In this document: positions 22,219-46,005 of the stretch, in pieces | Layout of the letters: each line of letters opens with the position of its first letter | How positions within the stretch are numbered: the first letter of the stretch is position 1 | DNA from: Novosphingobium piscinae | GTDB lineage: Bacteria; Pseudomonadota; Alphaproteobacteria; Sphingomonadales; Sphingomonadaceae | DNA: 64,000 nt | Direction: 5' to 3' | Assembly (NCBI RefSeq): GCF_014230355.1 | Contig: NZ_JACLAX010000002.1 | Coordinates: forward strand, 310,001 to 374,000 | The notes under the pieces: generated by a model | Told to the model about the DNA's origin: nothing | Database searches by the model: none | Seen by the model: the letters and a program-made list of their open reading frames with translations, nothing else | Position numbers and translations under genes: made by a program

Positions 22219-22295
22219 GGCGGAGTAGCTCAGCCGGTTAGAGCAGCGGAATCATAATCCGCGTGTCGGGGGTTCGAGTCCCTCCTCCGCTACCA
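22219..22295 (+). tRNA. tRNA-Met (CAT), elongator type
   Basis: The acceptor stem GGCGGAG pairs with CTCCGCT (G1-U72 wobble, not the mispaired initiator form). The D arm is TAGCTCAGCCGGTTAGAGC, the anticodon stem GCGGA/TCCGC encloses ATCATAA (anticodon CAT), the T arm is GGGGGTTCGAGTCCC, and CCA is encoded. It matches the alphaproteobacterial elongator tRNA-Met. The integrase gene begins 178 bases downstream, so the 3' part of this gene is the likely attachment site. Confidence 0.95.
22270..22295. other. Probable left attachment site (attL) at the tRNA-Met 3' end
   Basis: P4-type integrases normally recombine at the 3' end of a tRNA gene and leave it intact. The integrase lies directly downstream. 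I found no second copy of the tRNA 3' end in the window, so the right attachment site is outside it and the core boundaries are unknown. Confidence 0.55.
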
Positions 22296-22472
22296 ATGGC
22301 CTGTCCGGAAGCTTCCACACGCTTCCGCATTTTTCCAAAAAACAGCCGAAAAGTAGAGGGTTGCGGGCGATTCGCGTCCGCATTCGCCCTTGTCCTTCCA
22401 CATGCAGCCAGATTTGGTGTGGGGGTATTTTGGGGGTATTTTCGCGGAGTAGCGCAAAGGAGCGATACCCCC
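22296..22472 (+). promoter_or_regulatory. Gap between tRNA-Met and integrase
   Basis: 177 bases with lower GC than the flanks, including a run TTTTCCAAAAAACAG and TTTGGGGGTATTTT-like repeats before the integrase. It likely holds the integrase promoter, and integrase arm-binding sites would be expected here; I could not identify either with certainty. Confidence 0.4.
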
Positions 22473-23726
22473 ATGCCTCTGACAGACACTCAGGTCCGTA
22501 CTGCGAAGCCCGCTGAGCGAGCTTACAAGCTGGCCGACAGCGGCGGCTTGTTCCTGCTGGTGCAGCCAAACGGCACCAAGCTCTGGCGCATGAAGTACCG
22601 CGTCGCGGGAAAGGAGAAGCTGCTCTCGTTCGGTGCTTACCCGGGCGTCGGAATCGCGGCCGCAAGGGACAAACGGAACGCCGCCAAGGTTCAGCTTTCC
22701 GAGGGCACAGACCCGATGAAGGCAAAGGACGACGCGAAGCCTGCTGGCGGCAACACTTTCTTCGAGGTCGCGGAGCGCTGGCACATGAACCGCAAGTCAT
22801 CGCTGCATCCCGCCCATGCAGAACGGGTCTGGTCGAGAATGGAGCGGGACGTGTTCCCTGAACTCGGCCAAATGCCGATCGACGAAATCACGCCGCCCCA
22901 TGTGCTGGAGATGATCCGCAAGATCGAGGCGCGTGAGGCGCTGGATATCAGCCGCCGTGCCAAGCAGGGAGTAGGGCAGGTCTTCCAGTTTGCAATCGCC
23001 TGCGGTCTCACGAGCAATGACCCGACCGCCCATCTGCGCGGCGCCTTAAAGCCTCGCCCCCGCGTGCAGCACATGAGCCGCGTCCCGCTGAGCGAGTTGC
23101 CATCGCTACTCGAGAAGCTCCGCGCCTATCAGGAAGAGGGCGATCGGCGGTCGGTGATCACTCGCGACGCGCTGCTGTTCGCCTTGTTGACCTGGGTACG
23201 GACGAAAGAGCTTCGCTTTGCAGTCAAATCGGAGTTCGAAGGATTGGGCGGCAAGGAGCCACTCTGGCGGATCCCTGCGTCGAGGATGAAGATGGGGCGC
23301 GAGCACCTTGTGCCCCTGTCGGCTCAGGCGGCGCAAATCGCCCAGCGCCGATTCTCCGAGGCGACGGGCGACTTCGTTTTTCCTGGAGGCCATCCGGACA
23401 AGCCCCTCTCGGAGAACACGATGATCTACGGCCTCTACCGCCTGGGCTATCACACGAGGCAGACCGTTCATGGATTTCGCGGTCTGGCGAGCACTTGGGC
23501 CAACGAGCAACTGGTGGAGTTCGGCAAGCCGCCGATGTGGATCCGCAGGTACCACGAGGACTGGGTCGAGCTTCAACTGGCTCATTCCGAGAAGAACGAA
23601 GTGCGCAGCGCCTACAATGCGGCGGAGTATCTCGCTCCGCGGCGGCGAATGATGCAGGATTGGGCGGACTTCCTCGACGGAGGCAAGGTGGTCGACATCA
23701 AGAAGGGGCGGCGCCGCGCTGCGTAG
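22473..23726 (+). CDS. P4-type tyrosine site-specific integrase
   Basis: 417 aa. The N-terminal DUF4102 arm-binding domain starts MPLTDTQVRTAKPAERAY, a SAM-like core-binding domain spans about residues 105-185, and the catalytic domain holds LLTWVRTKELR, the H-x-x-R box HGFRGL and a tyrosine in SAYNAAEYL. It would integrate and excise the element at the adjacent tRNA-Met. The ATG at 22473 starts the recognised domain; the longer frame runs back into the tRNA gene. No excisionase gene was recognised beside it. Confidence 0.95.
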   Translation: MPLTDTQVRTAKPAERAYKLADSGGLFLLVQPNGTKLWRMKYRVAGKEKLLSFGAYPGVGIAAARDKRNAAKVQLSEGTDPMKAKDDAKPAGGNTFFEVAERWHMNRKSSLHPAHAERVWSRMERDVFPELGQMPIDEITPPHVLEMIRKIEAREALDISRRAKQGVGQVFQFAIACGLTSNDPTAHLRGALKPRPRVQHMSRVPLSELPSLLEKLRAYQEEGDRRSVITRDALLFALLTWVRTKELRFAVKSEFEGLGGKEPLWRIPASRMKMGREHLVPLSAQAAQIAQRRFSEATGDFVFPGGHPDKPLSENTMIYGLYRLGYHTRQTVHGFRGLASTWANEQLVEFGKPPMWIRRYHEDWVELQLAHSEKNEVRSAYNAAEYLAPRRRMMQDWADFLDGGKVVDIKKGRRRAA

Positions 23727-27680: not shown

Positions 27681-29669
27681 ATGATCAAGTCGATCCCGCT
27701 CAACAAGCTTGTGCAGTCGCCCCGCAATGTCCGCCGCCACGGCGATCCTGCAGCCGATGCGGAACTCAAGGCGAGCATTGCCGCCCACGGCCTTCTGCAG
27801 AACCTCATCGTGCGGCCCGCTACCAAGGGCAAGTTCGAGGTCGAGGCGGGTGAGCGCCGCCGCCGGGCCATGCTCGCCCTCGCGGATGACAAGGTCCTGC
27901 CGCGTGACCACGAGGTCATGTGCCTTGTCCTCGAAGATGCGACGGAAGAAACGGCCGGAACGAGCCTGGCCGAGAATTTCCACCGTCTCGCGATGAATCC
28001 CGCTGACGAGGCGCAGGCATTCGCTGCGCTGATCCAAACCGGTGCGTCCGCAGAAGAGGTCGCGCGCCGCTTTGGCCTCACCGTCCGGTTCGTGGAGGGG
28101 CGCCTGCGGCTCGCGAACCTTGCCCCCGTCGTGTTCGAGGCTCTCGCCGCTGGCGAGATCACCCTCGACCTCGCCAAGGCTTTTGGCGCGACCTCCGATC
28201 AGGAGATCCAGGCGCGGGTCTTCGAGCAGATCAACGCCCCCTACTACGCGCCGAATGCTGACAGCGTCCGGCGCATGGTGCTCTCGGGCACGGTGCGCGG
28301 CAGCGATCCGAGGGCCCGTCTGGTCGGCCGCGACGCATACATCGCGGCCGGGGGCAGGATCGAGCGCGAACTGTTCGATGACGAGGATAGCGAGGCATGG
28401 TCTGATGTGGCGCTGCTCGAGACCCTCGCCATGGCCAGGATGGAAGGGCACGCGCGGTCCCTGGCCGCCGAGCAGGGACTGGCCTGGGTCAAGCCGACGC
28501 TCGATCCCTATACCAGCCACGAACTTATCGAAGGTCTGGTTCGTCTGCCGGCACAGCCGGCGCCTCTCACCGACGCTGAACTTGCGCGGCTTAGCGAACT
28601 CGATGCTTCCTATGATGAACATGCCGCCATTCTCGAAGACGAGGATAGCGCCGATGAAGCGGTCGCCGCCGCCGAGGCGGCGATCGAGGCAATCGAGCGC
28701 GAATGTCAGGACATTCGTGCCCGGCCGCCCGTCCTTGCCCCGGAGCTCAAGGCCGAGGCTGGCATGGTCCTCGTGCTGTCGCGTGACGGAACGCCGGTTC
28801 TTCAGCCGGTGTTCTACGGCGCCGCCGCGGCCGAGGACCCGGACGATGAGGGCGCGATCGAGGTCGTTCCGGCCCCGGCTGGTGAGAACCGCCGGCGCTG
28901 CGCGCTCTCCAAGCGCCTCGTCGACGAGCTCGCCATGCAGCGGCGGGATGTCCTGGCCGTGCATCTTGCGTCCGATCCGGCGCTCGCCCTCGACCTCATT
29001 GTGTTCTCGCTTGCCGACGCCGATCATCATGATTGGCGGGCACGAGCCTCCACCACGATCAGGGGCCCAGTCCCGTCGGGGCCGATCATCGGCTTCGAGG
29101 CTCCGGACGCCCCCGCCAGCACCGCTCTGGCTGAGCTCAGGTCGGCCCTCGATGAAACTTGGCGCAAGGGTGAAGACGCATCCGCTCGCTTCGACCTCTA
29201 CCGCAGCCTTCCCGAGGACCGCCGGGCCGCATGGCTCGGCTTTGTGGTCGCCCGTTCGCTCGAGGCGAGCCTCAACATGGCCGGTGAACGCCGCCTGCCG
29301 TTTCAGGATCACCTGGGCGGCCTGATCGGCATCGACATGGCGAAGTGGTGGCGCCCGACTGCGGCAAACTACTTCGACCGGGTCTCCAAGCAGACGATCC
29401 TCGACGCCCTGACTGACATCGGCGGGCTCGAACTCTCCTCGCGCTTTGCCCCGGTGAAGAAGGCGGACCTCGCGATGAGCGCGGAGCGCGTCTTTGCGGG
29501 GACCTACATCACCGAGGCCGAGGTGCGTGAGAAGGCGCTGGCCTGGGTTCCCGAGGTGATGCGCTTCCCGCCTCTGGCGCCAGAGAGCACTGCAGAGGCG
29601 CTGGTCGATCAAGAGGAGCAAGTCGCCGGAAATTCCGAAAGTCAGCCCCCCCGCGAACTGGCCGCCTGA
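27681..29669 (+). CDS. ParB/Spo0J-like nuclease-domain protein of mobile elements
   Basis: 662 aa. The ParB N-terminal domain has LVQSPRNVRRH, LLQNLIVRP, EVEAGERRRRAML and TSLAENFHRLAMNPADE. A helix-turn-helix region (ASAEEVARRFGLTVRFVEGRL) follows, and then a long unassigned C-terminal part of about 450 residues. Proteins of this size and layout occur on sphingomonad plasmids and ICEs without a partner ParA, as here. They may act in DNA handling after transfer rather than partition. It heads a same-strand block (ArdC, DUF2493, SSB) in the proposed leading region. Confidence 0.85.
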   Translation: MIKSIPLNKLVQSPRNVRRHGDPAADAELKASIAAHGLLQNLIVRPATKGKFEVEAGERRRRAMLALADDKVLPRDHEVMCLVLEDATEETAGTSLAENFHRLAMNPADEAQAFAALIQTGASAEEVARRFGLTVRFVEGRLRLANLAPVVFEALAAGEITLDLAKAFGATSDQEIQARVFEQINAPYYAPNADSVRRMVLSGTVRGSDPRARLVGRDAYIAAGGRIERELFDDEDSEAWSDVALLETLAMARMEGHARSLAAEQGLAWVKPTLDPYTSHELIEGLVRLPAQPAPLTDAELARLSELDASYDEHAAILEDEDSADEAVAAAEAAIEAIERECQDIRARPPVLAPELKAEAGMVLVLSRDGTPVLQPVFYGAAAAEDPDDEGAIEVVPAPAGENRRRCALSKRLVDELAMQRRDVLAVHLASDPALALDLIVFSLADADHHDWRARASTTIRGPVPSGPIIGFEAPDAPASTALAELRSALDETWRKGEDASARFDLYRSLPEDRRAAWLGFVVARSLEASLNMAGERRLPFQDHLGGLIGIDMAKWWRPTAANYFDRVSKQTILDALTDIGGLELSSRFAPVKKADLAMSAERVFAGTYITEAEVREKALAWVPEVMRFPPLAPESTAEALVDQEEQVAGNSESQPPRELAA

Positions 29670-29703
29670 CCTCCTCCTGACAGGTTAGGCCGTTCGCACC
29701 CTC

Positions 29704-29743
29704 GCGAAGCGGTCCTCCGGCTCATCCCGGGGGGCCGCTTCGC
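29704..29743 (+). terminator. Hairpin after the ParB-like gene
   Basis: GCGAAGCGG (29704-29712) and CCGCTTCGC (29735-29743) form a perfect 9-bp stem with a 22-base loop, followed by CTTTGT. It may end the ParB message or act in the ArdC leader. Confidence 0.5.
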
Positions 29744-29779
29744 CTTTGTAAGGAGAGGAAAGGGGGCCTGGAACTCTGC

Positions 29780-29820
29780 GGCACCGACCGGCGGCAAGGA
29801 TGCCGGCCGAACTTCGTGCC
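29780..29820 (+). promoter_or_regulatory. Nested short inverted repeats before ArdC
   Basis: GGCAC/GTGCC enclose CCGGC/GCCGG (29780-29784, 29816-29820 and 29788-29792, 29802-29806), ending 18 bases before the ArdC start. Weaker than the fold-back elements before ssb and the DUF2493 gene. Confidence 0.35.
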
Positions 29821-29838
29821 GTGTTCAGGAGATCCGTC

Positions 29839-30780
29839 ATGACGAACCGCAAGAAGTATAGCAGCACGCCCTCGCCAGCGGCCCGTATCACCCAGGAAAT
29901 CATCGCCCGGCTCGAGGCCGGCACCAAGCCGTGGATCAAGCCATGGCGCGGCATTCCAGTCTCCCGGCCGCTGCGGGCCTGCGGCATTCCCTATCGGGGC
30001 ATGAACGTGTTCTGGCTCTGGATGGTGGCCGACATGTGCGGCTACGTCTCGCCGTTCTGGATGACCTACAACCAGGCCAAGGCGTTCGGCGGGCAGGTCC
30101 GCAAGGGCGAGACGTCCACCATCGCCATCTTCTACAAGAGCTACACCCGTGAGGTGGAAGTCCCCGAGTCCGGCGAGCGGACCGATGAAGCACGCCGGGT
30201 GCTCAAAGCCTACTCGGTGTTCAATGCCGACCAGGTCGAGGGACTGCCTGAGCGTTTCCACCCCGCGGCATCACTCGGACTGGTCGAGCCTGAAGGGCGG
30301 GCGGTCGAACTCGACGCCTTCTTCGCCGCCATCCCCGTCCATCTGCGGCACCAGGGTGATGAGGCCTACTATGAGCCCACCCCGGACCGGGTGACCATGC
30401 CCCCCCCAACCCTGTTCGCCGGGTTTGATCACTACTACGCGACCCTGGCGCACGAGCTCTCGCACTGGACCGGGCATGCAAGCCGCCTGGGGCGCGATCT
30501 CAAGCACCGTTTCGGGACCGAGGCCTATGCCGCCGAGGAGCTGATCGCGGAACTGTCCAGTGCCATGCTGGGGGCCGAGCTCGGCCTTCCCGTGACACAT
30601 CTCGACAGCCACGCGAGCTACATCGACCACTGGCTGAAGCTCTTGAAAGACGACGAGCGCGCTATTCTGACGGCCGCGGCGAAGGCCGAGGAGGCCTCGG
30701 CGCTCATCCTGCAACTGGGCGGGCGCAGCCTTGCAAGCGATCCTAATCATGCGTCCGCTGCCGACTCGCTGGCGGCTTGA
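29839..30780 (+). CDS. ArdC-like antirestriction protein (ssDNA-binding N-domain, zincin C-domain)
   Basis: 313 aa. The N-terminal ArdC domain has ITQEIIARLEAGTKPWIKPW and YRGMNVFWLW. The C-terminal metallopeptidase-like domain has the zinc motif HELSHWTGH (HExxH-like) and EELIAELSSAMLGAELGL. ArdC proteins protect incoming single-stranded plasmid DNA from restriction in the recipient. The ATG at 29839 follows CAGGAGATCC. Its position between a ParB-like protein and SSB in the leading region fits early expression after transfer. Confidence 0.88.
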   Translation: MTNRKKYSSTPSPAARITQEIIARLEAGTKPWIKPWRGIPVSRPLRACGIPYRGMNVFWLWMVADMCGYVSPFWMTYNQAKAFGGQVRKGETSTIAIFYKSYTREVEVPESGERTDEARRVLKAYSVFNADQVEGLPERFHPAASLGLVEPEGRAVELDAFFAAIPVHLRHQGDEAYYEPTPDRVTMPPPTLFAGFDHYYATLAHELSHWTGHASRLGRDLKHRFGTEAYAAEELIAELSSAMLGAELGLPVTHLDSHASYIDHWLKLLKDDERAILTAAAKAEEASALILQLGGRSLASDPNHASAADSLAA

Positions 30781-32299: not shown

Positions 32300-32888
32300 C
32301 AGCCCCCTCCGATGGGCAACGGCTCAAGAACCTGAGCCTGTAATCCGAATAAGCTATCGAACGGATTTCTGGTTGCTAGTCACAGCGCGCAAGTTTTCCC
32401 CCGTAGCGCAGTGCACGAGCTGATTACTGTTTGTGGCCGGCATGACTCAGGTCTGCACACGCAGCAGCGCGGAGTGGTACCCATAGCCTTGCACTTGATG
32501 TGTAAGCCCCCCTCGGGCTGGGATCGGGACTCCCAGTTATGTCGCTCTGCGCTCCCCGACCGAGCACTACACTCCCTTGGAATCCAACCTTGATCACGGG
32601 GCTCTACCAGCTTGAACCGTGGCCTGTTGCCCCTCGGCCCATCTGCCGCCGTCTGGACTGGCGCCAGGCGAGAGAGGCCCTGGTCCGGCCGCCCGCCTTG
32701 CGCAACCCGGCCCAGTTGGGCCCGTGTTGGCCTCCGCCCTGCGGGCGTGAGGCCGGCCCGCGCCAGCCCACCCTGGCGGGTTCCCCCTGACGGGTGCGCA
32801 AGGCGGCCTGGGTGCCGGACCCGACGGGCTCTCGCTGGCGCAGCCCCGAACGGCTGCATCGGCGTCACGTCAGTCAGGAGGACACCCC
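32300..32888 (+). promoter_or_regulatory. 589-base leader region before the DUF2493 gene
   Basis: No credible gene. The first half is AT-richer and belongs with the acquired 436-aa gene (its start and ribosome binding site are at 32299-32315). A small stem CTGGGA/TCCCAG is near 32516. The second half carries the large fold-back element listed separately. Confidence 0.5.
32682..32821 (+). repeat. Nested fold-back element before the DUF2493 gene
   Basis: An outer stem GGTCCGGC (32682-32689) pairs with GCCGGACC (32814-32821). A middle stem GCCTTGCGCA (32695-32704) pairs with TGCGCAAGGC (32795-32804). An inner stem-loop (GGCCT/AGGCC and CGCCC/GGGCG) lies at 32729-32754. The outer stem sequence is shared with the element before ssb. 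Candidate single-strand promoter or RNA structure. Confidence 0.6.
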
Positions 32889-33842
32889 ATGCACAGCTCT
32901 TTCGCGGACCAACTCGCCGGCCTTGACCTCGCCAGTTTCTCGGTCGGACCTGCACCTGTATCGACCAGCGATTTCCCGGTCCGGGACGCGGTTGTCCAGA
33001 CCGTCGAAGCAGTCTGGTCCGATCTCTTCGCCATGGTCACAGGCACCGCATTGGAGGCCGATGCCGAGGATCTCGGCTGGGCGCTCGTCAACATCTTCCA
33101 CCGCGCCGCAACCCGCAAGGGTTCTGCACTCGACCAGGCGACCGACGAGGTCCGCGCCCTGATCGCTACGGCCGACGGCTCGGAGGTGCATGCCTATGAC
33201 CTCGAGACACAGGTCGAGCGCGCACAGTGCGCCGAGCAGGCGATGCTTGCCTTCGAGGAAATGCGCGAGGTCGCAGCGAGCCTCTACCTCAACGAGTTCG
33301 GGTCATCCTGGCGGCCTGTCTCCAGCTCGCGCTTCAATCACGGTGCCATGCTGACCTCTGCGCTCGTCGAAGGGCGCGACTTCCTGCGTGCCCGGGCCGA
33401 GGCCAAGCGCAAGGCCGCACTCCCCGAGGGATCCCCCGTGGTCTTCGCTGGCGGGCGTACCCGGCACGCGAGTGAAGCCGATGCGCTGACCTTTGCCGAG
33501 AATGTCTGGGCTACCCTCGACAAGGTCCGTGACCGGGTCCCTGACATGGTGCTCATCCATGGCGGCGACACCAAGGGCGCCGATCGCCTCGCCGCAAGCT
33601 GGGCCGAGCGTCGGTCCATTCCTCAGGTCACGTTCTCGCTCGATCTTAGGCTGGGCGCCCGAGCTGGCTTCAAGCGCAATGAGCGCATGCTGTCGGTTGA
33701 TCCGCGCTACGTCGTCGCCTTCCCGGGGAACGGCGTCCTCGAACGCCTGGTGATCGAAGCGAAGGCCCGCAGGATCACCGTGGTGGATCGCCGCGGGCCG
33801 CTCGGCACCAACCCGAAGAACGTCGCAGCACATACAGGCTGA
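32889..33842 (+). CDS. DUF2493 (YspA/YpsA-related SLOG) domain protein
   Basis: 317 aa. The N-terminal 180 residues are helical and unassigned. The C-terminal SLOG-like domain has VVFAGGRTRHASEAD, LIHGGDTKGADRLAASWA and VVAFPGNGVLERLV, the nucleotide-binding pattern of DUF2493. SLOG domains bind or process nucleotide-derived ligands, and this version is common on conjugative elements. ATG 32889 follows CAGGAGGACACC. It belongs to the same-strand leading block with ArdC and SSB and has the long fold-back leader. Confidence 0.8.
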   Translation: MHSSFADQLAGLDLASFSVGPAPVSTSDFPVRDAVVQTVEAVWSDLFAMVTGTALEADAEDLGWALVNIFHRAATRKGSALDQATDEVRALIATADGSEVHAYDLETQVERAQCAEQAMLAFEEMREVAASLYLNEFGSSWRPVSSSRFNHGAMLTSALVEGRDFLRARAEAKRKAALPEGSPVVFAGGRTRHASEADALTFAENVWATLDKVRDRVPDMVLIHGGDTKGADRLAASWAERRSIPQVTFSLDLRLGARAGFKRNERMLSVDPRYVVAFPGNGVLERLVIEAKARRITVVDRRGPLGTNPKNVAAHTG

Positions 33843-34737
33843 AGGCCCACAGGATCATGCGCCGGCGTCTTACGGCGCTGGCGCTCGCCTCACAACGAGC
33901 TTAACCCGAACCAGCGTTAGGACAGCCCACGCAGCGCGGCTTTGCCTTGCTAGCGGAAGGTCCTTTAAAGCGATGCGTTGAACCATGCGCTGTATATGCG
34001 AGCGTTGTGTAAGCCGCTATCGGGAGCCCGGAGCCATGGCGGGCGTCCCACGACCTTCGTCCGTCATGGCTCCACCATGCGCTTCAACCGGCCGGTCCTG
34101 AGCGTCTTGCCAGGCGCGGTTTCCCAATCCTGCGCCATTCCCCGTGCGGCCTGCGACCAGCCGGTTCACACCACATCGGTCGAGAAGATCTGAACGGTGC
34201 GGGGCCATGTTGATGGTCCACGATAGGCGAACTCTGACCCTCGATGGTCCCAAGTCTCCCAGTGCAATCCGGCATGCTTTGCCGACCTCGTGCACCGGCA
34301 GATGTTCGTCTGCCCGTCCTGGCGGTGAAGCGCCGCGCTTCGGCCATGCCAGCCCATGCGGCCATCATGGCGTAACCTCATGCGTGTTTGAGCGATCGGG
34401 CGGGAAGCTCATCTCATCGGCGCATGCAGACGGGAAAACAGGGCAGGGCAGTCCTCCCTGAAGCATCCGGCTCCTCCCGGCTCCGATGCAAACCGGTCCC
34501 TGAATCACCCCCGTCAAGACGCGCAACCCGCACCAGGTCCGGCCGAGTTGCCGGGCACGTTCCTGCGCATCGCCGGTGCCGAAAACCGGTTCCCACTTTT
34601 CGGCGCGATGCGGGGTGCCCGGCTGCCCGCACCACCCGGACCCGGTGGGGTTCCCCTTCGGTGCGCTTCGCCGCGGGGCGCTTCTGCTCGGGTTTGCAGC
34701 CGGGATGGACCCGGAATGCTCGATCAGGAGAAGACCC
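33843..34737 (+). other. 895-base gap before ssb
   Basis: I see no protein-coding gene here; open frames are short and lack a recognisable product. It begins with a small stem GCGCCG/CGGCGC (33859-33878) after the DUF2493 gene and ends with the ssb leader. The middle (about 33900-34480) has no feature I can name. Confidence 0.5.
34536..34642 (+). repeat. Nested fold-back element before ssb, candidate ssDNA promoter
   Basis: Four perfect stems are nested: GGTCCGG/CCGGACC (34536-34542 with 34636-34642), CCGGGCAC/GTGCCCGG (34551-34558 with 34615-34622), CGCATCG/CGATGCG (34566-34572 with 34606-34612) and GCCGAAAA/TTTTCGGC (34578-34585 with 34597-34604), closing an 11-base loop. The F plasmid Frpo element, a promoter formed by folded single-stranded DNA before leading-region genes, has comparable architecture. 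The functional analogy is inference. Confidence 0.65.
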
Positions 34738-35127
34738 ATGACCAACCTCGTTATCCTCGTCGGCCGCATCGCTCGCGACCCCGAAACCCGCACCACCACC
34801 GGTGGGACCAGCATCACCTCGATTTCGGTCGTCACCGACCGGCCCGCACGCAAGGATGGCAAGACCTACAAGGACGAGAACGGCTACACTGCCAAAGACA
34901 GCGAGTTCCACCGGGTGACCTGCTTCAACGGGCTCGGAGCGAATGTCGCCAGGTACTGCAGCAAGGGCCAGCTCGTAACGGTCGAGGGGCGCCTCCACTA
35001 CACCCAATGGGAGGATCAGACCGGCACCAAGCGCTACGGCTGCGAGATCATCGCCGACAAGGTCGATTTCCTCACCAAGGGCCGCTCGGGCAGCAACGAA
35101 GACGCCCCGGACATCGACGAGGAGTAA
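34738..35127 (+). CDS. ssb: Single-stranded DNA-binding protein
   Basis: A 129-aa OB-fold protein (MTNLVILVGRIARDPETRTT; EFHRVTCFNGLGANVARYCSKG; VEGRLHYTQWEDQTGTKRYG) with a short acidic tail ending in DIDEE. It lacks the canonical DDDIPF end that recruits host repair proteins. Plasmid SSBs coat the entering strand. The ATG follows CAGGAGAAGACCC. An intrinsic terminator follows the gene. Confidence 0.95.
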   Translation: MTNLVILVGRIARDPETRTTTGGTSITSISVVTDRPARKDGKTYKDENGYTAKDSEFHRVTCFNGLGANVARYCSKGQLVTVEGRLHYTQWEDQTGTKRYGCEIIADKVDFLTKGRSGSNEDAPDIDEE

Positions 35128-35243: not shown

Positions 35244-35474
35244 TTAAGCGGGGCCAATGCGCTTCAGCGTTTCCTCAATCCCGAGCGCCATCGCTGCGCG
35301 GACGATGCGCACCAGATGCGCCGGCTCGATCGTCTCGCCGCCGCACTCGACGAGGAGCTTGCCCAAGTCAGTCGCGGCCTCTTGCCTGAGGCGCGCCTCC
35401 TCGGTTTCGAGCTGGGCGCGCTGTTCACGCAGTTTCCTCAGCGCCTCGCGCGCTGTCGGTTTGGACCTGGCCAT
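35244..35474 (-). CDS. DUF6437-like small helical protein
   Basis: 76 aa, starting MARSKPTAREALRKLREQRA with a charged coiled-coil first half, then LGKLLVECGGETIEPAHLVRIV. It resembles DUF6437 proteins found near mobilisation genes in sphingomonads (moderate certainty). It is on the strand opposite to ssb, separated by the ssb terminator. Role unknown; an accessory DNA-binding role is possible. Confidence 0.6.
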   Translation of the reverse strand: MARSKPTAREALRKLREQRAQLETEEARLRQEAATDLGKLLVECGGETIEPAHLVRIVRAAMALGIEETLKRIGPA

Positions 35475-35798
35475 GGGGTATCCTTTGTGCTGGCCGTGGG
35501 TCCCCTCCGCGCGGAAATCTCGCAGGGCGGGCCCGTGTAGGAAAATGGTTTGTGCGGCAGGCTTCAGCGCTTTGCCGCAGACGTTGTAAGAGGTCTCTCT
35601 CGCAGAAAGTCCAAGCGTGATGCCGGCTTTGGGGCTGCGTCAAGGACGACGGGGCCCCACCATTTTTGCGGGGCAAGCCCCGAAAAAATCGTGACCCCCA
35701 TCGCCGCTTCGCGGCCGCTTCGCGGTCCCTGACCCAGCCCGTCGCCACCATCCTGAGCAGCTCCTGATGCGACGCATCGAACATCAGGAGGAACGACC
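35475..35798 (+). promoter_or_regulatory. Leader of the 78-aa protein
   Basis: 324 bases. It holds the hairpin CGGGGC-AA-GCCCCG flanked by T5 and A6 runs (35663-35688), two tandem copies of GCCGCTTCGCG near 35702-35725, and the ribosome-binding-site hairpin listed separately. An open frame on the minus strand here is rejected as low-confidence. Confidence 0.4.
35761..35790 (+). promoter_or_regulatory. Hairpin that sequesters the ribosome binding site
   Basis: CTCCTGATG (35761-35769) pairs perfectly over 9 bases with CATCAGGAG (35782-35790). The 3' arm contains most of the Shine-Dalgarno AGGAGG of the gene starting at 35799, so translation should be blocked unless the stem is opened. Confidence 0.65.
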
Positions 35799-36035
35799 AT
35801 GCCCGCTGCGCTGAACATTGCTCCCATGGGTCTCAAGGCAGATCAGGCAGCCTTCGTGGCAGCCCTGGACCAGGCCCATGCCCGGTCCTTTCACAGCTAC
35901 TACACGCAGTACATCCTGGCCGACGAGGAGGGCGGGTACATCGCGGTCGACGAAGGGGACTACGGCGCCCTGCCGCAGGCCATGCTGGACCGGGTGATCG
36001 ACACGGTGCCAGGCCGGCTCGACGATGAATTCTGA
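35799..36035 (+). CDS. Hypothetical 78-aa protein
   Basis: An acidic protein, MPAALNIAPMGLKADQAAFV at the start, then HSYYTQYILADEEGGYIAVDEGDY. No family recognised. The start is supported by a strong AGGAGG site, which is locked in a hairpin, and the gene ends before a clear terminator. It is the leading-region gene nearest to the candidate oriT and points towards it. Confidence 0.65.
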   Translation: MPAALNIAPMGLKADQAAFVAALDQAHARSFHSYYTQYILADEEGGYIAVDEGDYGALPQAMLDRVIDTVPGRLDDEF

Positions 36036-36045
36036 GCCAACCGCC

Positions 36046-36079
36046 AAGGAGGAAGTCCATCAGGGCTTCCTCCTTTTCT
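36046..36079 (+). terminator. Intrinsic terminator after the 78-aa gene
   Basis: AAGGAGGAAG (36046-36055) and CTTCCTCCTT (36066-36075) form a perfect 10-bp stem followed by TTCTC. Confidence 0.85.
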
Positions 36080-36430
36080 CGTGCTCGGCGCCCGGGGGCT
36101 AACGGGCTCTATCGGATCGCCAGTTCGGTCTTGCGGAGCGGTCTCGCCTCGGGTGCTCGGCGAGGCGCTGAAGCCCGCGGCAAGGGACGGCAACACGCTC
36201 CGACCGTGACAGGTTGCGATACGGGGTCCTGGCCGCGCAGGAGGGGACAGGGGGGCACACCCTACGCGACGGGTCGCAGGTGTTCGGGCTTGATAAATCG
36301 CTGATTTGCCGCGGTTTCGTTACCTGCTGCCCGAATGGCAACTTCTCCGTCAGAAATGACTTGAGGCGTGGGAGTGACGGCGTTGTGACCTCACAGGGCG
36401 GCACAACTGAGGAAATCCGCGGCATTGCAT
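36080..36430. other. Candidate origin of transfer region
   Basis: A non-coding stretch directly upstream of the relaxosome accessory gene, TraD and relaxase. It contains TTCGGGC (36283-36289) paired with GCCCGAA (36329-36335), enclosing AAATC-GCT-GATTT (36295-36307), in a locally AT-richer segment. Position and structure fit oriT, but no nic consensus for this MobF branch could be recognised. Confidence 0.4.
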
Positions 36431-36463
36431 GTTCTTGACATGTTCCAACAAGTGACGTAGCTT
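36428..36463 (+). promoter_or_regulatory. Relaxosome/TraD/TraI promoter with LexA-type box
   Basis: A -35 TTGACA (36435-36440), a 17-base spacer and a -10-like TAGCTT (36458-36463) are visible. The direct repeat GTTC-N7-GTTC (36431-36445; CATGTTC twice, 11 bases apart) covers the -35, as a repressor site should. This is the alphaproteobacterial SOS box pattern. Confidence 0.7.
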
Positions 36464-36516
36464 CGACCTTGCCTTTCGCAGTGTGAACCGGGCTCCTCAA
36501 CACAAGGAGTCCGTGC

Positions 36517-36846
36517 ATGACACGGCCAATCTGTCTCCAGGTCTACATCTCCAGCGAGCTCAGCGCGCTGGTTCGCCAGGCCGCCCAGGCCCAGGGCGTC
36601 AGCATGAGCGAGTGGGTCCGCGCGCTCGTCGTCAGGGCCTGTGACGGCGATGATCCCGCCGTCCGGATCGAGGCCACGATCGAGCGCATTGCCCGCCGCT
36701 CGGTCTTCCTGATGGTCGGCATCGATGCCCTGCTCGCCGGTCATCCGGACCACGCCCTGCGCGGTCGCGCGCACCAGGCCTATGCGCGCAAGTGCAAGGA
36801 GCTAGGCCTGTCGTCTGCCGGCGAGGGAGGCTCCGATGAGGCGTAA
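36517..36846 (+). CDS. Ribbon-helix-helix relaxosome accessory protein
   Basis: A 109-aa protein whose N-terminal 40 residues have the RHH pattern (CLQVYISSELSALVRQAAQA, then SMSEWVRALVVRAC). A helical C-terminal half follows. Small RHH proteins (TraY, TrwA or MobC-like) bind oriT beside the relaxase and often repress their own promoter. It is first in the operon with traD, overlapping it by 11 bases. Confidence 0.75.
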   Translation: MTRPICLQVYISSELSALVRQAAQAQGVSMSEWVRALVVRACDGDDPAVRIEATIERIARRSVFLMVGIDALLAGHPDHALRGRAHQAYARKCKELGLSSAGEGGSDEA

Positions 36847-39271
36847 TCTCGTCAACTTCACCCGCGGCAGCCAGCTTCTCGGCCACTTCAGCTTCATGTT
36901 CGCCGCAGGCCTCAAGGGGCCGCTGATCGTCGCCATCCTGGTGATTTCCTGGACCTCGTGGTGGACCCTGTCGCGGGGGCTCAGCGATCACGAAACCTAT
37001 CTCGTCTGGATTCGGATCTACGGCTCGATCTACCGCTACATGGAGTTCGATCCGGCCAAGCAGATCGCGCTCCAGACCGCCTACGGCGGGACCATCCAGT
37101 TCCCCGTTGCGCGGCTCGACCACTATACCCCGGTGGTCCAGGCCTGGACCAAGCTGACGAACCTCCTCGGCTCCGCGCTGTGGCGCTCCGCGCTCCTGCT
37201 CGTCCCGGCCTTTGCCGTGTTCTACTGGTTCGCCGAGCGGTTCGGCGGCCGCTCGAAGGAACGTCAGCACGAGCGCGGCGCGCTGCTCGTCACGCTCCCC
37301 GAACTGGTCGAGGAACTGACCGCGCACAACCGCCGCGAGCGCAAGCGCGAGCTCGTCTCCGCGATGGGCTGGAAGTGGCGCCTCAGCCTGCCGAGCGAGA
37401 TCGCCAAGGTCTTCCCCTACCAGCCCTCGCACCTCGCGAGGGTGACCTATCCCTGGCGGCTCGAGCAGAGCCACGCCATGCTGATCGGGACCACCGGCAT
37501 GGGCAAGACCGTGGCCATTTCCGACATGATCGCCGAGGCGCGGGCCAAGGGGCAGCGCTGCGTCGTCTTCGATCTCACCGGCGCCTTCATCGAGCACTTC
37601 CACACCGCCCACTGCGACGTCATCCTCAATCCCCTGGACGCTCGCTGCCCCCAGTGGAGCCTCTTCGATGAATGCCGCTCGGAGGGCGAGTTCTGGGCCG
37701 CGGCCGATGCCCTGGTACCGCATGACGGAGGCGGAGAGGCGCAGTTCTGGGTCATCGCGGCGCGTGCGCTTTTCGTCGAGTTCTGCCTCAAGCTGGTCAG
37801 CGAAGGGCGAGGCACCAACGAGGCGCTCGCCCGCGAGCTGATGACCGCGGACCTCACCCGTGTCCACGCCATGATGCGCGGGACGATCGCCGATCCACTG
37901 ACCGCGCCGGAAGCTGCACGCATGGCGGAATCGATCCGTGCGGTGTTCAACGTCAATGCCAAGGCGCTGAAACTCCTGCCCACCTCTGGACCGCGTTTCT
38001 CGGTCCGCGAGTGGATCGAGGCAGGCAGCGGGACTGCCACTGAAACGGGGCAGGGCCGGGGCTCGATCCTGTTCATCTCCGCACGGTATGTCGACATGAG
38101 CGTCTGCGCCCAGCTCCTCACGCTCTGGCTCGACACGGCGATGAACACGCTGATGACCATGCCCCGCACCCGCGATCTCAAGTGCTGGTTCTTCGTCGAC
38201 GAGCTGGGCGCGCTGCACCGCCTGCCGGCCCTCGAAAAGGGGCTGCAGACCGCCCGCAACTTCGGCGGTGCGATCGTCCTCGGGCTCCACGCCTATGCCA
38301 AGCTCAAGGAGGTCTACGGCGAGAACATGGCGATGACGCTCGCCTCGCTCGCCCGCACCAAGCTGATCCTAGGTACCGCCGACCGGGAGACCGCGACCTG
38401 GTGCTCGGACTTCATTGGTCACCGCCAGGTGCGCGACATGGAGGAGGGCTATACCTACGGCTACAACAACGCCCGTGACGCGGTGAGCCTGACACCGAGG
38501 AAGCACATTGAGCCGCTGCTGCTGCCCGACCAGCTGATGAACCTTCCACGGCTCTCGGGGTACATCAAGTTCCCCGACGGCTTTCCTGCCGCGCCGGTGA
38601 GACTGATCCCTGTCGACCGGCCGCGCCGCGCCGAGACCTTCATTGCGCGGGTTAATGAGCCGGTCCTGCCGGCTCCGTCCGAACCCTTGGATACGGTGGC
38701 CGAAGCAGCGGGCCAAGCGGCGGCTTCTGCCAGCGAGCACCCTTCGGCAAACGACGACGGGGCAGGCAAGCCCGTGGTCCCCAAGCAGGGCGAGCTGGCG
38801 CTCGATGAGGCCGGGAAGGCAGAGGTCGAGCGACCGCATGGCACCTCCGGCAAGGGGCGCCGCAAGGCGGCGGAACCGGGAAAGACCAGCCCTCCGGAGC
38901 GTCAGGACAGTCTGCCTGCGAACGCCTCCCAGCGGCCTGCGGCAGCACGGTTGAGCGCGCCCGCCGAGGGGCAGCCGGATGCTCCCATGGCAGCCACTTC
39001 GCAGAGCGCTGACGCGCTCGGCCGGACGTTGCTGCCTGCAGGGCTGCCAACTGGCGAGAAGGCAGAGGCGGGTGGGGGACAGAACGGCATGGCGGCGCAG
39101 AACGCTGAGTCCGGTTCCCCTGACGCGCTGCCGCGCCCAGAGCAGCAAGGCCGCGATCAGCCCGCAGCGCCGGTCGGTGCCGAGGCGCGCAAGCTGATGC
39201 TCGAGGACGGCCTTCCCGGAGAGCACGAGGCGCCGTTCACCGGGCCAGAAGTCGGCGACTTCGAGATGTAG
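36836..39271 (+). CDS. traD: Type IV coupling protein TraD
   Basis: 811 aa. N-terminal membrane segments (about residues 25-45 and 115-135) precede the ATPase domain with Walker A GTTGMGKTVA and Walker B WFFVDELGAL, and EKGLQTARNFGGAIVLGLHA is typical of the family. The last 200 residues form a low-complexity acidic/Pro-Ala tail ending GPEVGDFEM, as in F TraD, which uses its tail for relaxosome contact. It pumps the relaxase-DNA complex into the secretion channel. TraI follows after 41 bases. Confidence 0.95.
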   Translation: MRRNLVNFTRGSQLLGHFSFMFAAGLKGPLIVAILVISWTSWWTLSRGLSDHETYLVWIRIYGSIYRYMEFDPAKQIALQTAYGGTIQFPVARLDHYTPVVQAWTKLTNLLGSALWRSALLLVPAFAVFYWFAERFGGRSKERQHERGALLVTLPELVEELTAHNRRERKRELVSAMGWKWRLSLPSEIAKVFPYQPSHLARVTYPWRLEQSHAMLIGTTGMGKTVAISDMIAEARAKGQRCVVFDLTGAFIEHFHTAHCDVILNPLDARCPQWSLFDECRSEGEFWAAADALVPHDGGGEAQFWVIAARALFVEFCLKLVSEGRGTNEALARELMTADLTRVHAMMRGTIADPLTAPEAARMAESIRAVFNVNAKALKLLPTSGPRFSVREWIEAGSGTATETGQGRGSILFISARYVDMSVCAQLLTLWLDTAMNTLMTMPRTRDLKCWFFVDELGALHRLPALEKGLQTARNFGGAIVLGLHAYAKLKEVYGENMAMTLASLARTKLILGTADRETATWCSDFIGHRQVRDMEEGYTYGYNNARDAVSLTPRKHIEPLLLPDQLMNLPRLSGYIKFPDGFPAAPVRLIPVDRPRRAETFIARVNEPVLPAPSEPLDTVAEAAGQAAASASEHPSANDDGAGKPVVPKQGELALDEAGKAEVERPHGTSGKGRRKAAEPGKTSPPERQDSLPANASQRPAAARLSAPAEGQPDAPMAATSQSADALGRTLLPAGLPTGEKAEAGGGQNGMAAQNAESGSPDALPRPEQQGRDQPAAPVGAEARKLMLEDGLPGEHEAPFTGPEVGDFEM

Positions 39272-39312: not shown

Positions 39313-42240
39313 ATGCTTTCGGTAGCCAATGTCCGCACCGCTGGCGGCGCGGCCAACTACTTCGCCGCCGACAACTACTACACCCGGGCCGATGCCGATC
39401 GGTCCGGGGAGTGGCTGGGCAAGGGGGCAGCCGCGCTGGGGCTCACCGGGACAGTCGAGACCCGCGCGTTCGAGGCGCTGCTCAAGGGTTTCCTGCCCGA
39501 TGGCAGCCAGGTCGGCAGCGAAGGGCGGCCCCACCGGGCCGGCACGGACCTCACGTTCTCCCTGCCCAAAAGCTGGTCGGTTCTGGCGCTCGTGGGCGGC
39601 GACAAGCGGATCCTCGAGGCCTACGCGGGCGCGGTGCGCGAGACGTTGCGCTGGGCGGAAAAGAACCTCGCCGAGACCCGCATGGAGATCCGCGGGCGGG
39701 AGCGCGTGGTTGCCACCGGTAACCTCGCCGTGGCGCTCTTCCAGCACGACACCAACCGCAACCAGGAGCCCAATGCCCACATCCATGCGGTGGTCGCCAA
39801 TGTCACCCAGGGTCCCGACGGCAAGTGGCGGGCCCTGCGCAACGACAAGCTGTGGGAGAGCAACACCCTCCTCAACGCCATGACCATGGCGCGTTTCAGG
39901 CTGGAGGTGGAGAAGCTCGGTTACGAGGTCGGCGAGTTCGGCAAGCACGGCAATTTCGAGGCCGTCGGCGTGCCGAAGGAGGTCCGCGAGGCGTTCAGCT
40001 CCCGGCGTGCGGAGATCCTCGAAGCTGCTGCGCAGATGGACTACTCGGGCCCGACTATCCTCGACAAGGCAACGCTCGTAACGCGCGCGGACAAGGCGCG
40101 GGTCGAAGACCGTGACGCGCTGACCCGGCAGTGGCAGGAGACCTCGGCCAAGCTCGGGTTTGATCCGGCCGCGGTCATCGCCAGGGCCAATGCGCGGGCC
40201 GCGCAGGACATCGGAAGAGTGGCCGGGATCAAGGCATCGGTGAGCGCATTGGCGCGGCAGGGTCGGGCCCTTGCCGAGGCCTTTGCCGAGCGACTTGGCC
40301 TGCGCGAGGGTGATCCGCTGATCCCCTCACGGCTTGGCCACCGCGGCCCCGAGGAGGTTGCCGCGATCCATGCCGTCGCCTCGGCCGTGCGCCACCTCGC
40401 TGAGCGCGAGGCGGCGTTCACCCGCACCGACGTCTACCGGACAGCGCTCGGTTTCGGGCTGCCGACCTCGCTGGCCCAGATCGAACGCCGCGTCGATCAG
40501 CTGCTGCGTCAGGGCCATCTGGAACAGGGCAAGGGCGCCGACCGCGAACTTCTGACGACCCGCGATGCGATCGGGCTCGAGCAGTGCATTCTCGGTGAAG
40601 TGGATGGTGGCCGCGGCCTCGCTCCGGCGATCGTTCCGGCCGCGCTCGCCGGCGAACGGCTGCAGGCGCTGTCGCAGCTCAAGTACGGCCTGACCCTCAA
40701 CGCCGGACAGGAAGGGGCGGGGCGGCTGCTCCTCGCCTCCTATAACCGGATCGTCGCCATCCAGGGGGTCGCCGGGGCAGGCAAGAGCACGGTCCTCAAG
40801 CCTGTCGCCGATATCCTGAGGGAGGAGGGACGCGCGGTGCTGGGGCTCGCGGTGCAGAACACGCTGGTCCAGATGCTCGAGCGCGATACGGGCATTCCGT
40901 CGATGACGGTGGCCCGCTTCCTGCGCCAGCACCGCGACCTGCTCGACGGCACCGATCCGGGCCGTCTCGCCGAGGCCCGTGCCGGAATGCGCGGCACCGT
41001 CGTGCTGCTCGACGAGGCCTCGATGGTCGGCAATGCCGACAAGGAAAAGCTCGTGCGCCTCGCCAATCTCCTCGAGCTCGGCCGTTTTGCCAGCATCGGC
41101 GACCGCAAGCAGCTGGGTGCGGTCGATGCGGGCAAACCCTTCGATATCATGCAGCAGGCGGGCGTCGAGACGGCGGTCATGGACACCAACTTGAGGGCCC
41201 GGGACAAGGCACTCAGGGCGGCCCAACAGGCCGCCCAGGAGGGGCGGATCGAGGAGGCCATGGCCCACCTTGGATCCCAGGTCATCGAGGCCGGGAACGA
41301 TGCCGCGGTCGCGGCAGCTGCGGCCTGGCTCGCCCTCGCGCCGGCTGAGCGCGTGGCAACCGCGATCTATGCCTCAGGCCGCAATCTGCGCAGCGCCGTC
41401 AACGAGGCGGTGCAGACCGGGCTCAGGGCCAATGGTGAACTGGGGCCCGAGACCATGCGGCTGAGCACATTATCGCGGGTCAACGTGACCCGCGAGGAGC
41501 TGCGCTATGCGAGCACCTATACGCCCGGCATGGTGGTCGAAGTAACGCGGCGTCAGCGCAGGCAAGGACTTGCCGAGGGCGAGTACCGCGTGGTCTCGGT
41601 CGACGTCGCACAGGGCCGCGTCATGCTGGCGAGCAGCCGGGGCAAGGCCGTGGAGTTCCGGCCGGGGAGGCTCCGACCGCAGGGCGAGCAGGACGCGCTG
41701 CGGCTCTTCGAGCAGCGCGAGCTCGACGTCTACACCCATGACCGCATCCGCTGGACGACGACCGACCATAGCCGCGGTCTGCTCAATGCCGACCAGGCCG
41801 AGATCCTTGGCATAGACACGGCAGGCATGGTCATCAGGACCGCGCTCGGCACCGAGCACCGGCTCGAGCGCGACGACCCCATGCTGCTCCGGCTTGATCT
41901 TGCCTATGCCCTCAATGCCCACATGGCGCAGGGCTTGACCTCCGACCGCGGCATTGCGGTGATGGACAGCCGCGAGCGCAACCTCGCGAACCAGCAGACC
42001 TTCCTGGTGACGGTCACCCGGCTGCGCGACGGGCTGACGCTCTATGTGGACAATGCCGGGCGGCTCGAGACCGCTGTGGAGCGCAATCCGGGCATGAAGC
42101 GCTCGGCGCTCCAGACCGTCGACCGTCTGCGCGAGGCAGCGGCCGAAGGCCGGGCGAAGGGAGCGGTGCCAGGCGTCAGCGAGCGCAAGCCGCCAGAGCT
42201 CGACCGCTCCATGACCCGTCCGTTCGAGATCGGGATCTAG
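39313..42240 (+). CDS. traI: MobF relaxase/helicase (TrwC/TraI family)
   Basis: 975 aa, the size of TrwC rather than F TraI. The N-terminal relaxase domain has nucleophile candidates Tyr22/Tyr23 (AADNYYTR), FSLPKSWSVLAL and the metal-binding histidines in PNAHIHAVVANV. The C-terminal superfamily I helicase has Walker A GVAGAGKSTVL, VVLLDEASMVG and SIGDRKQLGAVD. It nicks oriT, stays bound to the 5' end and unwinds the strand. It is co-transcribed with traD. Confidence 0.96.
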   Translation: MLSVANVRTAGGAANYFAADNYYTRADADRSGEWLGKGAAALGLTGTVETRAFEALLKGFLPDGSQVGSEGRPHRAGTDLTFSLPKSWSVLALVGGDKRILEAYAGAVRETLRWAEKNLAETRMEIRGRERVVATGNLAVALFQHDTNRNQEPNAHIHAVVANVTQGPDGKWRALRNDKLWESNTLLNAMTMARFRLEVEKLGYEVGEFGKHGNFEAVGVPKEVREAFSSRRAEILEAAAQMDYSGPTILDKATLVTRADKARVEDRDALTRQWQETSAKLGFDPAAVIARANARAAQDIGRVAGIKASVSALARQGRALAEAFAERLGLREGDPLIPSRLGHRGPEEVAAIHAVASAVRHLAEREAAFTRTDVYRTALGFGLPTSLAQIERRVDQLLRQGHLEQGKGADRELLTTRDAIGLEQCILGEVDGGRGLAPAIVPAALAGERLQALSQLKYGLTLNAGQEGAGRLLLASYNRIVAIQGVAGAGKSTVLKPVADILREEGRAVLGLAVQNTLVQMLERDTGIPSMTVARFLRQHRDLLDGTDPGRLAEARAGMRGTVVLLDEASMVGNADKEKLVRLANLLELGRFASIGDRKQLGAVDAGKPFDIMQQAGVETAVMDTNLRARDKALRAAQQAAQEGRIEEAMAHLGSQVIEAGNDAAVAAAAAWLALAPAERVATAIYASGRNLRSAVNEAVQTGLRANGELGPETMRLSTLSRVNVTREELRYASTYTPGMVVEVTRRQRRQGLAEGEYRVVSVDVAQGRVMLASSRGKAVEFRPGRLRPQGEQDALRLFEQRELDVYTHDRIRWTTTDHSRGLLNADQAEILGIDTAGMVIRTALGTEHRLERDDPMLLRLDLAYALNAHMAQGLTSDRGIAVMDSRERNLANQQTFLVTVTRLRDGLTLYVDNAGRLETAVERNPGMKRSALQTVDRLREAAAEGRAKGAVPGVSERKPPELDRSMTRPFEIGI

Positions 42241-45114: not shown

Positions 45115-46005
45115 TTATGCCGCCTGTTTGATCATCGGATCATGGGGGGCATGCCCCCCATGATCCGATTGTCCGATCCGCCGATAGGCTTCGAGTGGGG
45201 TTCTCCCGGCGAGGCCCGAGTGCGGACGCTGGTTGTTGTAGTAGGTGATCCACCGGCCAAGGCCAGTTCGCAGCTCCGATCCGGTCTCGAAGGCGTGGAG
45301 ATAGACGCACTCGTACTTCAGGGATCGCCAGAGGCGTTCGATGAAGACATTGTCCATCCACCGGCCCCGGCCATCCATGCTGATGCGGACCTCGGCCTCG
45401 CGCAGCACGCTGGTGAAGGCGTACGACGTAAACTGGCTGCCTTGATCGGTGTTGAAGATCTCGGGCTTGCCGAACCGAGCCAGCGCCTCCTCCAGCGCTG
45501 CAACGCAGAAGCCGGCGTCCATGGTGTTCGACAGTCGCCAGGCCAGGACCTTGCGGGTCGCCCAGTCCATGATCGCTACCAGGTAGAGGAACCCCCGACG
45601 CATGGGGATGTAGGTCACATCGGCGCACCACACGTGATTGGGCCGCTCGATCGTCAGCTTGCGCAAAAGATACGGATAGACCCGATGCTGCGGGTGTGGA
45701 TCGCTCGTGCGGGGTCGCTGGTAGATCGGTGTCAGCCCCATCTTCGCCATGAGCCGCCGCACCCGACGACGGCCAACATCCCGGCCATTGCGGCGGAGAT
45801 GCCGCGCCATCTGGCGGCTGCCATACCATGGGCATTCCATGAACACCTCGTCGATCACCGTCATCAGCGCCAGCGTCTCGTCCGTTTCCGGCACCGGGGC
45901 ATAGTAAAACGATGAGCGGCTGATCCGCAGCAGGCGGCACTGCGCCGAGATCGACAGGCGGTGGTGAGCAGGTTCGACCATCGCCCGCCTCCGGTCCACG
46001 CTCAT
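45115..46005 (-). CDS. IS3-family transposase OrfB (DDE integrase)
   Basis: 296 aa with the rve integrase core. The catalytic triad is Asp in CADVTYIPM, Asp in FNTDQGSQF and Glu in IERLWRSLKYE. An N-terminal HTH_21-like region (CRLLRISRSSFYY; YGSRQMARHLRR) precedes it. Its start overlaps the orfA stop by 4 bases (ATGA). In this family OrfAB is usually made by -1 frameshifting; no strong slippery heptamer is evident at the overlap, so reinitiation is also possible. Confidence 0.95.
   Translation of the reverse strand: MSVDRRRAMVEPAHHRLSISAQCRLLRISRSSFYYAPVPETDETLALMTVIDEVFMECPWYGSRQMARHLRRNGRDVGRRRVRRLMAKMGLTPIYQRPRTSDPHPQHRVYPYLLRKLTIERPNHVWCADVTYIPMRRGFLYLVAIMDWATRKVLAWRLSNTMDAGFCVAALEEALARFGKPEIFNTDQGSQFTSYAFTSVLREAEVRISMDGRGRWMDNVFIERLWRSLKYECVYLHAFETGSELRTGLGRWITYYNNQRPHSGLAGRTPLEAYRRIGQSDHGGHAPHDPMIKQAA

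Follow-up and report, generated by a model that had tools for sequence, protein, structure and literature searches.

The stretch of DNA analysed here, called the window in what follows, comprises 64,000 nucleotides of Novosphingobium piscinae (contig NZ_JACLAX010000002.1, positions 310,001 to 374,000) and contains a mobile element in which a gene for a 78-aa protein, ssb, and the genes for a DUF2493 protein, ArdC and a ParB-like protein lie to the left of the trwA-position, trwB and trwC genes, all on the same strand. Two of them, the DUF2493 gene of the YspA-like SLOG type (32889..33842, plus strand, 317 aa; Pfam PF10686, E 2.1e-21) and ssb (34738..35127, plus strand, 129 aa; Pfam PF00436, E 2.6e-28), are each preceded by a long fold-back, named here leader A and leader B, which are the main subject of this work. 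Further along the plus strand are the 78-aa gene (35799..36035), the TrwB/TraD-type coupling protein gene (36836..39271; PF10412, E 1.5e-157) and the TrwC-type MOBF relaxase gene (39313..42240; PF08751, E 1.3e-82). An open reading frame (ORF) without Pfam match at 36517..36846, on the same strand, would be the trwA counterpart by its position, and the intergenic stretch at 36040..36516, patchily conserved and located between the 78-aa gene and the trwA-position, trwB and trwC genes, is the place where the origin of transfer (oriT) would be expected.

Leaders A and B and their conserved core

Leader A covers 32644..32858 and leader B 34466..34715, both as folds of the minus strand, with compensatory changes among the relatives of the former and covariation in 14 relatives of the latter; the outer arms of leader A include GCGAGAG (32668) and CTCTCGC (to 32835). 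Written on the plus strand, a conserved core is located at 32699..32797 in leader A and, including an insert, at 34520..34664 in leader B. The alignment of relatives of both leaders gives this core as GCAACCC–N–CCGWGTTG–variable hairpin–CTGCCCGCRCCA–N–GGGTTYCCC, in which the distance from the start of GCAACCC to GTTG is 24 bases in 36 of the 37 listed sites, L047 having 26, and the same distance was read by eye in leader A of the window. A single covariance model (R1), built from 19 sequences that included leader A of the window and relatives of leader B, not leader B of the window itself, finds both leaders, with 67.4 bits for A and 58.9 bits for B. Judged by sequence, the two leaders share a common core and belong to a single family, unnamed so far.

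The earlier note on this DNA had described in both leaders an outer stem, GGTCCGG...CCGGACC, enclosing further nested stems. All of these are present: GGTCCGG at 32682 faces CCGGACC at 32815 in leader A (32682..32821), GGTCCGG at 34536 faces CCGGACC at 34636 in leader B, and the 10 GGTCCGG and 9 CCGGACC of the window form no other pair with starts 90–150 bases apart. A single 7-base stem is unremarkable, since 798 seven-base inverted pairs with the same spacing occur in the window. Furthermore, GGTCCGG stands 5' of GCGCAACCC (32700) in leader A and 3' of GCGCAACCC (34521) in leader B. It thus precedes the core of leader A on its 5' side and lies within that of leader B, and its sharing is therefore a coincidence; in relatives of leader A the pair is replaced by GGGCCAGC/GCTGGCCC, which is a compensatory change. 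Because of the non-equivalent positions and this replacement, the stem was rejected as the feature common to the two leaders.

As for the nesting, part of it in leader B is due to a repeat. Many relatives of this leader match the query at 1–57 and 116/118–261 and at almost nothing between, and a palindrome at 34566-34611 has copies elsewhere in many genomes of the genus, some close together, as well as in plasmids that are mainly rhizobial. By this distribution, 34557..34615 is an inserted dispersed palindrome outside the ancestral leader, missing in many relatives, and some of the nested stems are consequently foreign to leader B. The behaviour of a dispersed repeat, with copies irrespective of the gene, is true of 34557-34615 only, since the sites of the core precede ssb or DUF2493 genes.

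Distribution, gene association and orientation

Matches to R1 (E up to 0.01) are found in 76 of 194 genomes of the genus. When the identity of the downstream ORF was counted by phmmer in fetched loci, an SSB or DUF2493 ORF followed the match in 49/51 cases of one locus set (39 + 10) and in 33/35 of another (15 + 18); the exceptions, with neither gene, are L100, L136 and two very weak matches (L083:4253 and L121:2624). A pattern scan of named genomes returned at least 120 stretches, and in the 80 listed loci, to which the counts refer, 89 sites were present: 69 before an SSB ORF, 11 before a DUF2493 ORF, 8 cut by the end of the locus and one (L176) before neither, so that 69 ssb and 11 DUF2493 genes account for 80 of the 81 sites with readable downstream DNA. 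The taxa among the matches listed are Sphingomonadales, Rhodobacterales, Hyphomicrobiales, Henriciella, Phenylobacterium and others, the orders being presumed in part from general knowledge of the genera, and the core family is thus found across Alphaproteobacteria. An ssb leader of another subtype matches 144 plasmids of PLSDB, including those of Pseudosulfitobacter and Sulfitobacter; leader A gave no blastn match in the same database, one ssb leader gave none in a phage collection, and the chromosomal ssb of the N. piscinae genome itself has no R1 match at E up to 0.01.

Over the window, R1 finds leaders A and B only. The ParB and ArdC genes, which the earlier note had listed with ssb among the genes pointing towards the candidate oriT, are not preceded by any R1 match there, and upstream of ArdC (29640-29840) the folding bias is the opposite one, towards the plus strand, in 8/9 representatives (z+ -5.15 and z- -3.55 for the scan window 29641-29860); common leaders before these two genes were hence rejected, and the structure upstream of ArdC is perhaps an mRNA-level one or a terminator. 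A Phaeobacter plasmid carries R1 matches at L141:13979-14059 and L141:15634-15693 (E 0.0018 and 0.027), before a hypothetical gene and an ArdC-like gene. In Rhodobacterales the family may serve further leading genes.

The orientation of the sites was compared with that of relaxase genes (PF08751 and PF03432) for 128 R1 matches among those listed, from 48 genomes and that of N. piscinae, for which the relaxase place is approximate, being taken from window coordinates. The relaxase lists exclude five rows that are fragments of PF08751 and one PF03432 row interrupted by a stop, and some PF03432 rows score below the family cut-off. Twenty-six matches are on contigs without relaxase, 8 are located beyond 60 kb and 94 within 60 kb of one; all of the latter are on the relaxase strand and 92 read towards the relaxase. 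They correspond to 57 contig-relaxase pairs, 51 with PF08751 (MOBF) and 6 with PF03432, to which the label MOBP is given here by our own assignment. In particular, the order of the window is found again in pSLPG (MOBP) and in one stretch of an Aurantiacibacter plasmid (MOBF). The proposal that these genes occupy a leading region and point at the predicted oriT and relaxase is thereby supported. The relaxase is typically located in the lagging region, according to passages of PMC11541004; if oriT lies, as usual, between the leader genes and the relaxase, the minus strand would be the transferred one and the template for ssb.

Folding bias towards the minus strand

Folded as minus strand, the leaders examined in this way form one long interrupted hairpin. 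In 14 minus-strand ssb leaders, 56 consensus pairs were obtained with 96.5% of cells paired and 11/56 pairs changed on both sides, for a consensus structure derived from the very alignment on which it was scored, which favours it; none of 500 shuffles was as high on either measure, paired cells or covariation, and sliding the partners destroys the covariation. An RNAalifold count of G.T 70 and A.C 2 on the minus-derived structure was discarded as circular, and wobble-free RNAalifold structures gave small counts (G.T 8 and A.C 1 from the minus strand, G.T 1 and A.C 1 from the plus strand).

A G.U pair in RNA becomes A.C on the other strand and selection on one strand therefore leaves a mark. 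This was examined in two sets of leaders: 44 representatives from the clustering of 100 distinct regex matches, ended at the first fitting start codon, which for some DUF2493 leaders was a nearer and wrong one, and 37 representatives that stand for 86 of the 89 pattern-scan sites and whose species overlap partly with those of the first set. Among the 44 representatives, single mismatches on plus letters were A.C 65 versus G.T 9 in wobble-free plus-strand folds and A.C 56 versus G.T 13 when the minus strand was folded, an excess that is partly compositional because C exceeds G. The minus strand is the more stable one in 42/44 with DNA parameters and in 43/44 with RNA parameters. Against dinucleotide shuffles, in which the composition is preserved, the mean z is -3.07 for the plus and -4.52 for the minus strand in the first set, with 40/44 representatives biased to minus, and -3.05 and -4.49 in the second, with 37/37; equally long control windows further upstream and downstream are biased to minus in 20/35 and 13/33, which is no bias.

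For the leaders of the window themselves, z is -3.61 as plus RNA and -2.06 as minus DNA for A and -2.02 and -3.76 for B, values that are not like with like as they mix RNA and DNA parameters; with DNA parameters on both strands, leader A has z+ -3.06 and z- -5.06 and leader B z+ -2.94 and z- -6.87. In a scan of 138 windows over 27.0-42.3 kb, leader B is first and leader A second by minus-strand z, and the third place belongs to 35581-35800.

The same kind of scan was applied to the F plasmid (48.0-66.5 kb, 167 windows of 220 nucleotides), which has the proven single-strand promoters Frpo1 and Frpo2. By minus bias, 63730-63949 is first (4.79), 52180-52399 second (2.73) and 58340-58559 third (2.46) of 167; by minus-strand z, 63730-63949 is fourth and 58340-58559 third. 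These two windows precede a gene at 64032, probably ygeA, and ssb at 58643, respectively, their regions are 86% identical over 336 bases, and they fit Frpo1 (before ygeA) and Frpo2 (before ssbF). The suggestion of the earlier note that the leaders are candidate single-strand promoters is supported by the bias of the family (40/44 and 37/37), a signature that Frpo1 and Frpo2 show as well. A strand-bias test in which both strands are compared with common shuffles needs no sequence model to recover Frpo, and such promoters could be sought with it in other DNA.

The third-ranking region of the window corresponds to leader C (35600..35798, minus strand; z- -3.84, zdiff 2.67), a fold-back before the 78-aa gene. 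This gene, without Pfam match, had been grouped with ssb and the DUF2493 gene; a minus-biased leader is indeed present before it, of a family different from that of A and B. The 24 representatives of its relatives (102 blast rows) are all biased to minus, with a mean z of -5.28 for the minus and -2.65 for the plus strand; this analysis, like that of the region upstream of ArdC, the alignment and gene neighbourhood of leader C and the conservation of the stretch expected to hold oriT, drew also on about 40 pattern-scan loci beyond the 80 listed. A relative of the 78-aa gene is located to the right in 31/33 sites of leader C, and relatives of a divergent DUF6437 gene (35244-35474) to the left in 21/33. 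TCAAGGA is present in 34/34 aligned representatives and its partner TCCCTGAC in 31/34, a pairing that gives A.C on the plus and G.T on the minus strand. In a hairpin promoter, the 3' arm of the minus strand would be the non-template strand; this arm contains TTGA and, in 26/34, CATC at a distance of 15 bases behind the hexamer, and the best sigma-70 score averages 8.21 versus 6.14 for shuffled sequences (34 representatives).

Proposed function and alternative explanations

Leaders A and B are interpreted here, with a probability of roughly 0.64, as belonging to a conserved alphaproteobacterial family of single-stranded DNA fold-backs that act like Frpo of F, namely as predicted single-strand promoters. 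The family, its gene association, the orientation to relaxase genes, the covariation and the minus-strand folding bias are computed; the transfer of the minus strand, the start of the polymerase at the leader and the timing are what we infer. In the proposed mechanism, the minus strand, the predicted transferred strand (T-strand), would enter the recipient from oriT with its 5' end first, and the leader preceding ssb or the DUF2493 gene would fold into a long hairpin, interrupted but for the most part double-helical, immediately before the gene. RNA polymerase would take this hairpin as a promoter and transcribe the gene while its template is still single-stranded, the recipient would make SSB and the DUF2493 protein at once, and second-strand synthesis would, in turn, remove the fold and switch the promoter off.

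Frpo1 and Frpo2 resemble the two leaders in being located in the leading region, Frpo2 directly upstream of ssb, with genes read towards oriT, and in the long fold-back that their transferred strand forms, which stops a few tens of bases short of the start codon and is strongly biased to the T-strand. They differ in their conserved core, in the lack of any sequence similarity and in the canonical -35/-10 reported for Frpo, which is not seen in A and B. A likeness to the ssi promoters of ColIb-P9 can also be drawn: from these, leading genes are reportedly transcribed on the single strand in a manner dependent on secondary structure. Deletion of either Frpo1 or Frpo2 abolishes early expression in recipients, according to passages of PMC9849209.

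Several results weigh against this interpretation. The blastn comparison of leaders A, B and C with Frpo1 and Frpo2 gave matches of 9–11 bases only, with E at least 0.08, and a search of the F region with R1, at E up to 1, gave no match. In 32400-34760, neither strand has a sigma-70 consensus site, and for 81 leaders of the A/B family the predicted non-template arm has a sigma-70 score of 6.32 versus 6.46 for shuffled sequences, out of 12; the box scan does not discriminate, since Frpo1 and Frpo2 score no better than their shuffles either (7 versus 7.6 and 7.4). The boxes of leader C may be those of an ordinary DUF6437 promoter, because in double-stranded DNA they point at this divergent gene.

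With regard to strand bias, the p-values are optimistic, given the common ancestry of the representatives and the overlap of the two sets in their species. In the window scan, leader B is fourth by strand bias alone and the window of leader A has 1.38, which lies within the noise (standard deviation of all windows 1.22), so that the case for leader A rests on its family. The strongest minus bias of the same scan (zdiff 3.44) is located at 37121-37340, inside the coupling protein gene, and may be due to chance among 138 windows.

Other adverse points concern transfer. The identity of the minus strand as the T-strand would follow from the usual order of oriT and relaxase. Of the 94 sites, two point away from the relaxase closest to them; one of these two is located towards the end of a contig of 39 kb, possibly a circular one. 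A second site of the Aurantiacibacter plasmid (L144:14068-14205) precedes another ssb in the midst of integrase genes; the annotated relaxase is encoded on the other strand, about 70 kb away by the shorter way round. This site belongs perhaps to a separate integrated element. A plasmid of Sphingomonas naphthae with two sites is typed as non-mobilizable and has no relaxase in the 28 kb seen. The 144 PLSDB records, whose typing is taken as annotated, are 62 conjugative, 23 mobilizable and 59 non-mobilizable, the last group being the unfavourable one. Finally, a strictly filtered class-wide search with R1 gave matches in only 2/289 genomes, that of N. piscinae included.

Among the alternatives, the one that survives best, rather improbable all the same, is that the fold is a single-strand initiation site recruiting a primase or primosome for second-strand synthesis and not for gene expression. 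Such a site would have the same strand, region and kind of fold, and Frpo itself is said to have been described, by Masai and Arai in 1997, in both the promoter and the priming role; however, a site that serves priming only would have no need to lie close before the start codons in no more than two families of genes.

It is unlikely that the minus-strand fold is selected as an RNA of minus sequence, acting as antisense on the expression of ssb and DUF2493. The minus-strand folding bias would arise in this case too, but the absence of any promoter-like site from both strands of 32400-34760 argues against an antisense transcript, the known single-strand promoters show the same folding signature, and the fixed orientation towards relaxase genes is not predicted, though an inherited gene order could explain it.

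Slightly less probable again is a structured 5' leader of the mRNA, riboswitch-like or bound by SSB on its own messenger, in which a plus-strand RNA fold would control translation or termination. The limited range of distances to the start codon, the strict gene association and the folding of leader A as plus-strand RNA, better than that of its shuffles (z -3.61), are in its favour, and the structured RNA leaders of Rfam are alike in having a conserved fold upstream of few gene types. In contrast, the bias of the A/B leaders lies on the opposite strand in 40/44 and 37/37 and A.C mismatches dominate, not G.U. Moreover, Rfam gave no match to the leaders in the window at the gathering threshold, and in eight leader loci, searched at E up to 0.1, it gave a single weak match, outside the leader; an RNA role does not predict the orientation towards relaxase genes.

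Inverted repeats that arose by chance in GC-rich DNA, or dispersed palindromes, are scarcely credible as an explanation. It is true that 7-bp inverted pairs are common and that the insert of leader B is a dispersed palindrome, but the conserved core, the covariation and the gene association refute this explanation for everything except that insert and the GGTCCGG match.

The function proposed for leaders A and B as single-strand promoters is known in kind, and the family, its core and its alphaproteobacterial range are new as far as found. To our knowledge, the experimental evidence on single-strand promoters comes from enterobacterial plasmids only. Neither the open-licence literature nor Rfam yielded a description of these leaders, their core or this range, and no paper in that literature was found to join Frpo with Alphaproteobacteria or to bring together three of DUF2493, SSB, conjugative and conserved intergenic. 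According to its own passages, the study of Samuel et al. 2024 (PMC11541004) collected Frpo-like candidates through BLAST searches that started from five known sequences and through a -35/-10/UP consensus; these candidates resemble leaders A and B as T-strand folds before ssb and anti-defence genes, and the word 'alphaproteobacteria' was not found in the main text of that article. Published surveys, as far as passages of PMC11541004 and PMC12826799 describe them, use BLAST with known Frpo sequences or a -35/-10 consensus and would for this reason be expected to miss the A/B family.

A wider proposal, to which slightly better than even odds are given, is that the family arose separately from Frpo, has an internal-loop core in place of a recognisable -35/-10, serves mobile elements across Alphaproteobacteria and turns on SSB and the SLOG-domain (DUF2493) protein in the recipient before second-strand synthesis, alongside the unrelated T-strand leader family C of the same leading regions. 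If this is true, single-strand transcription arose more than once. Should the promoter function of the leaders hold, genes would commonly be expressed early from the entering strand when alphaproteobacteria conjugate, and the products of the DUF2493 and 78-aa genes would be candidate establishment or anti-defence factors.

Two further features were observed elsewhere in the window. A tRNA-Met is followed at 22219-23726 by an ORF which, from its sequence, we take to be integrase-like, and this arrangement suggests an integrated element. Two overlapping minus-strand ORFs at 45115-46286 presumably correspond to a transposase pair of the IS3 type.

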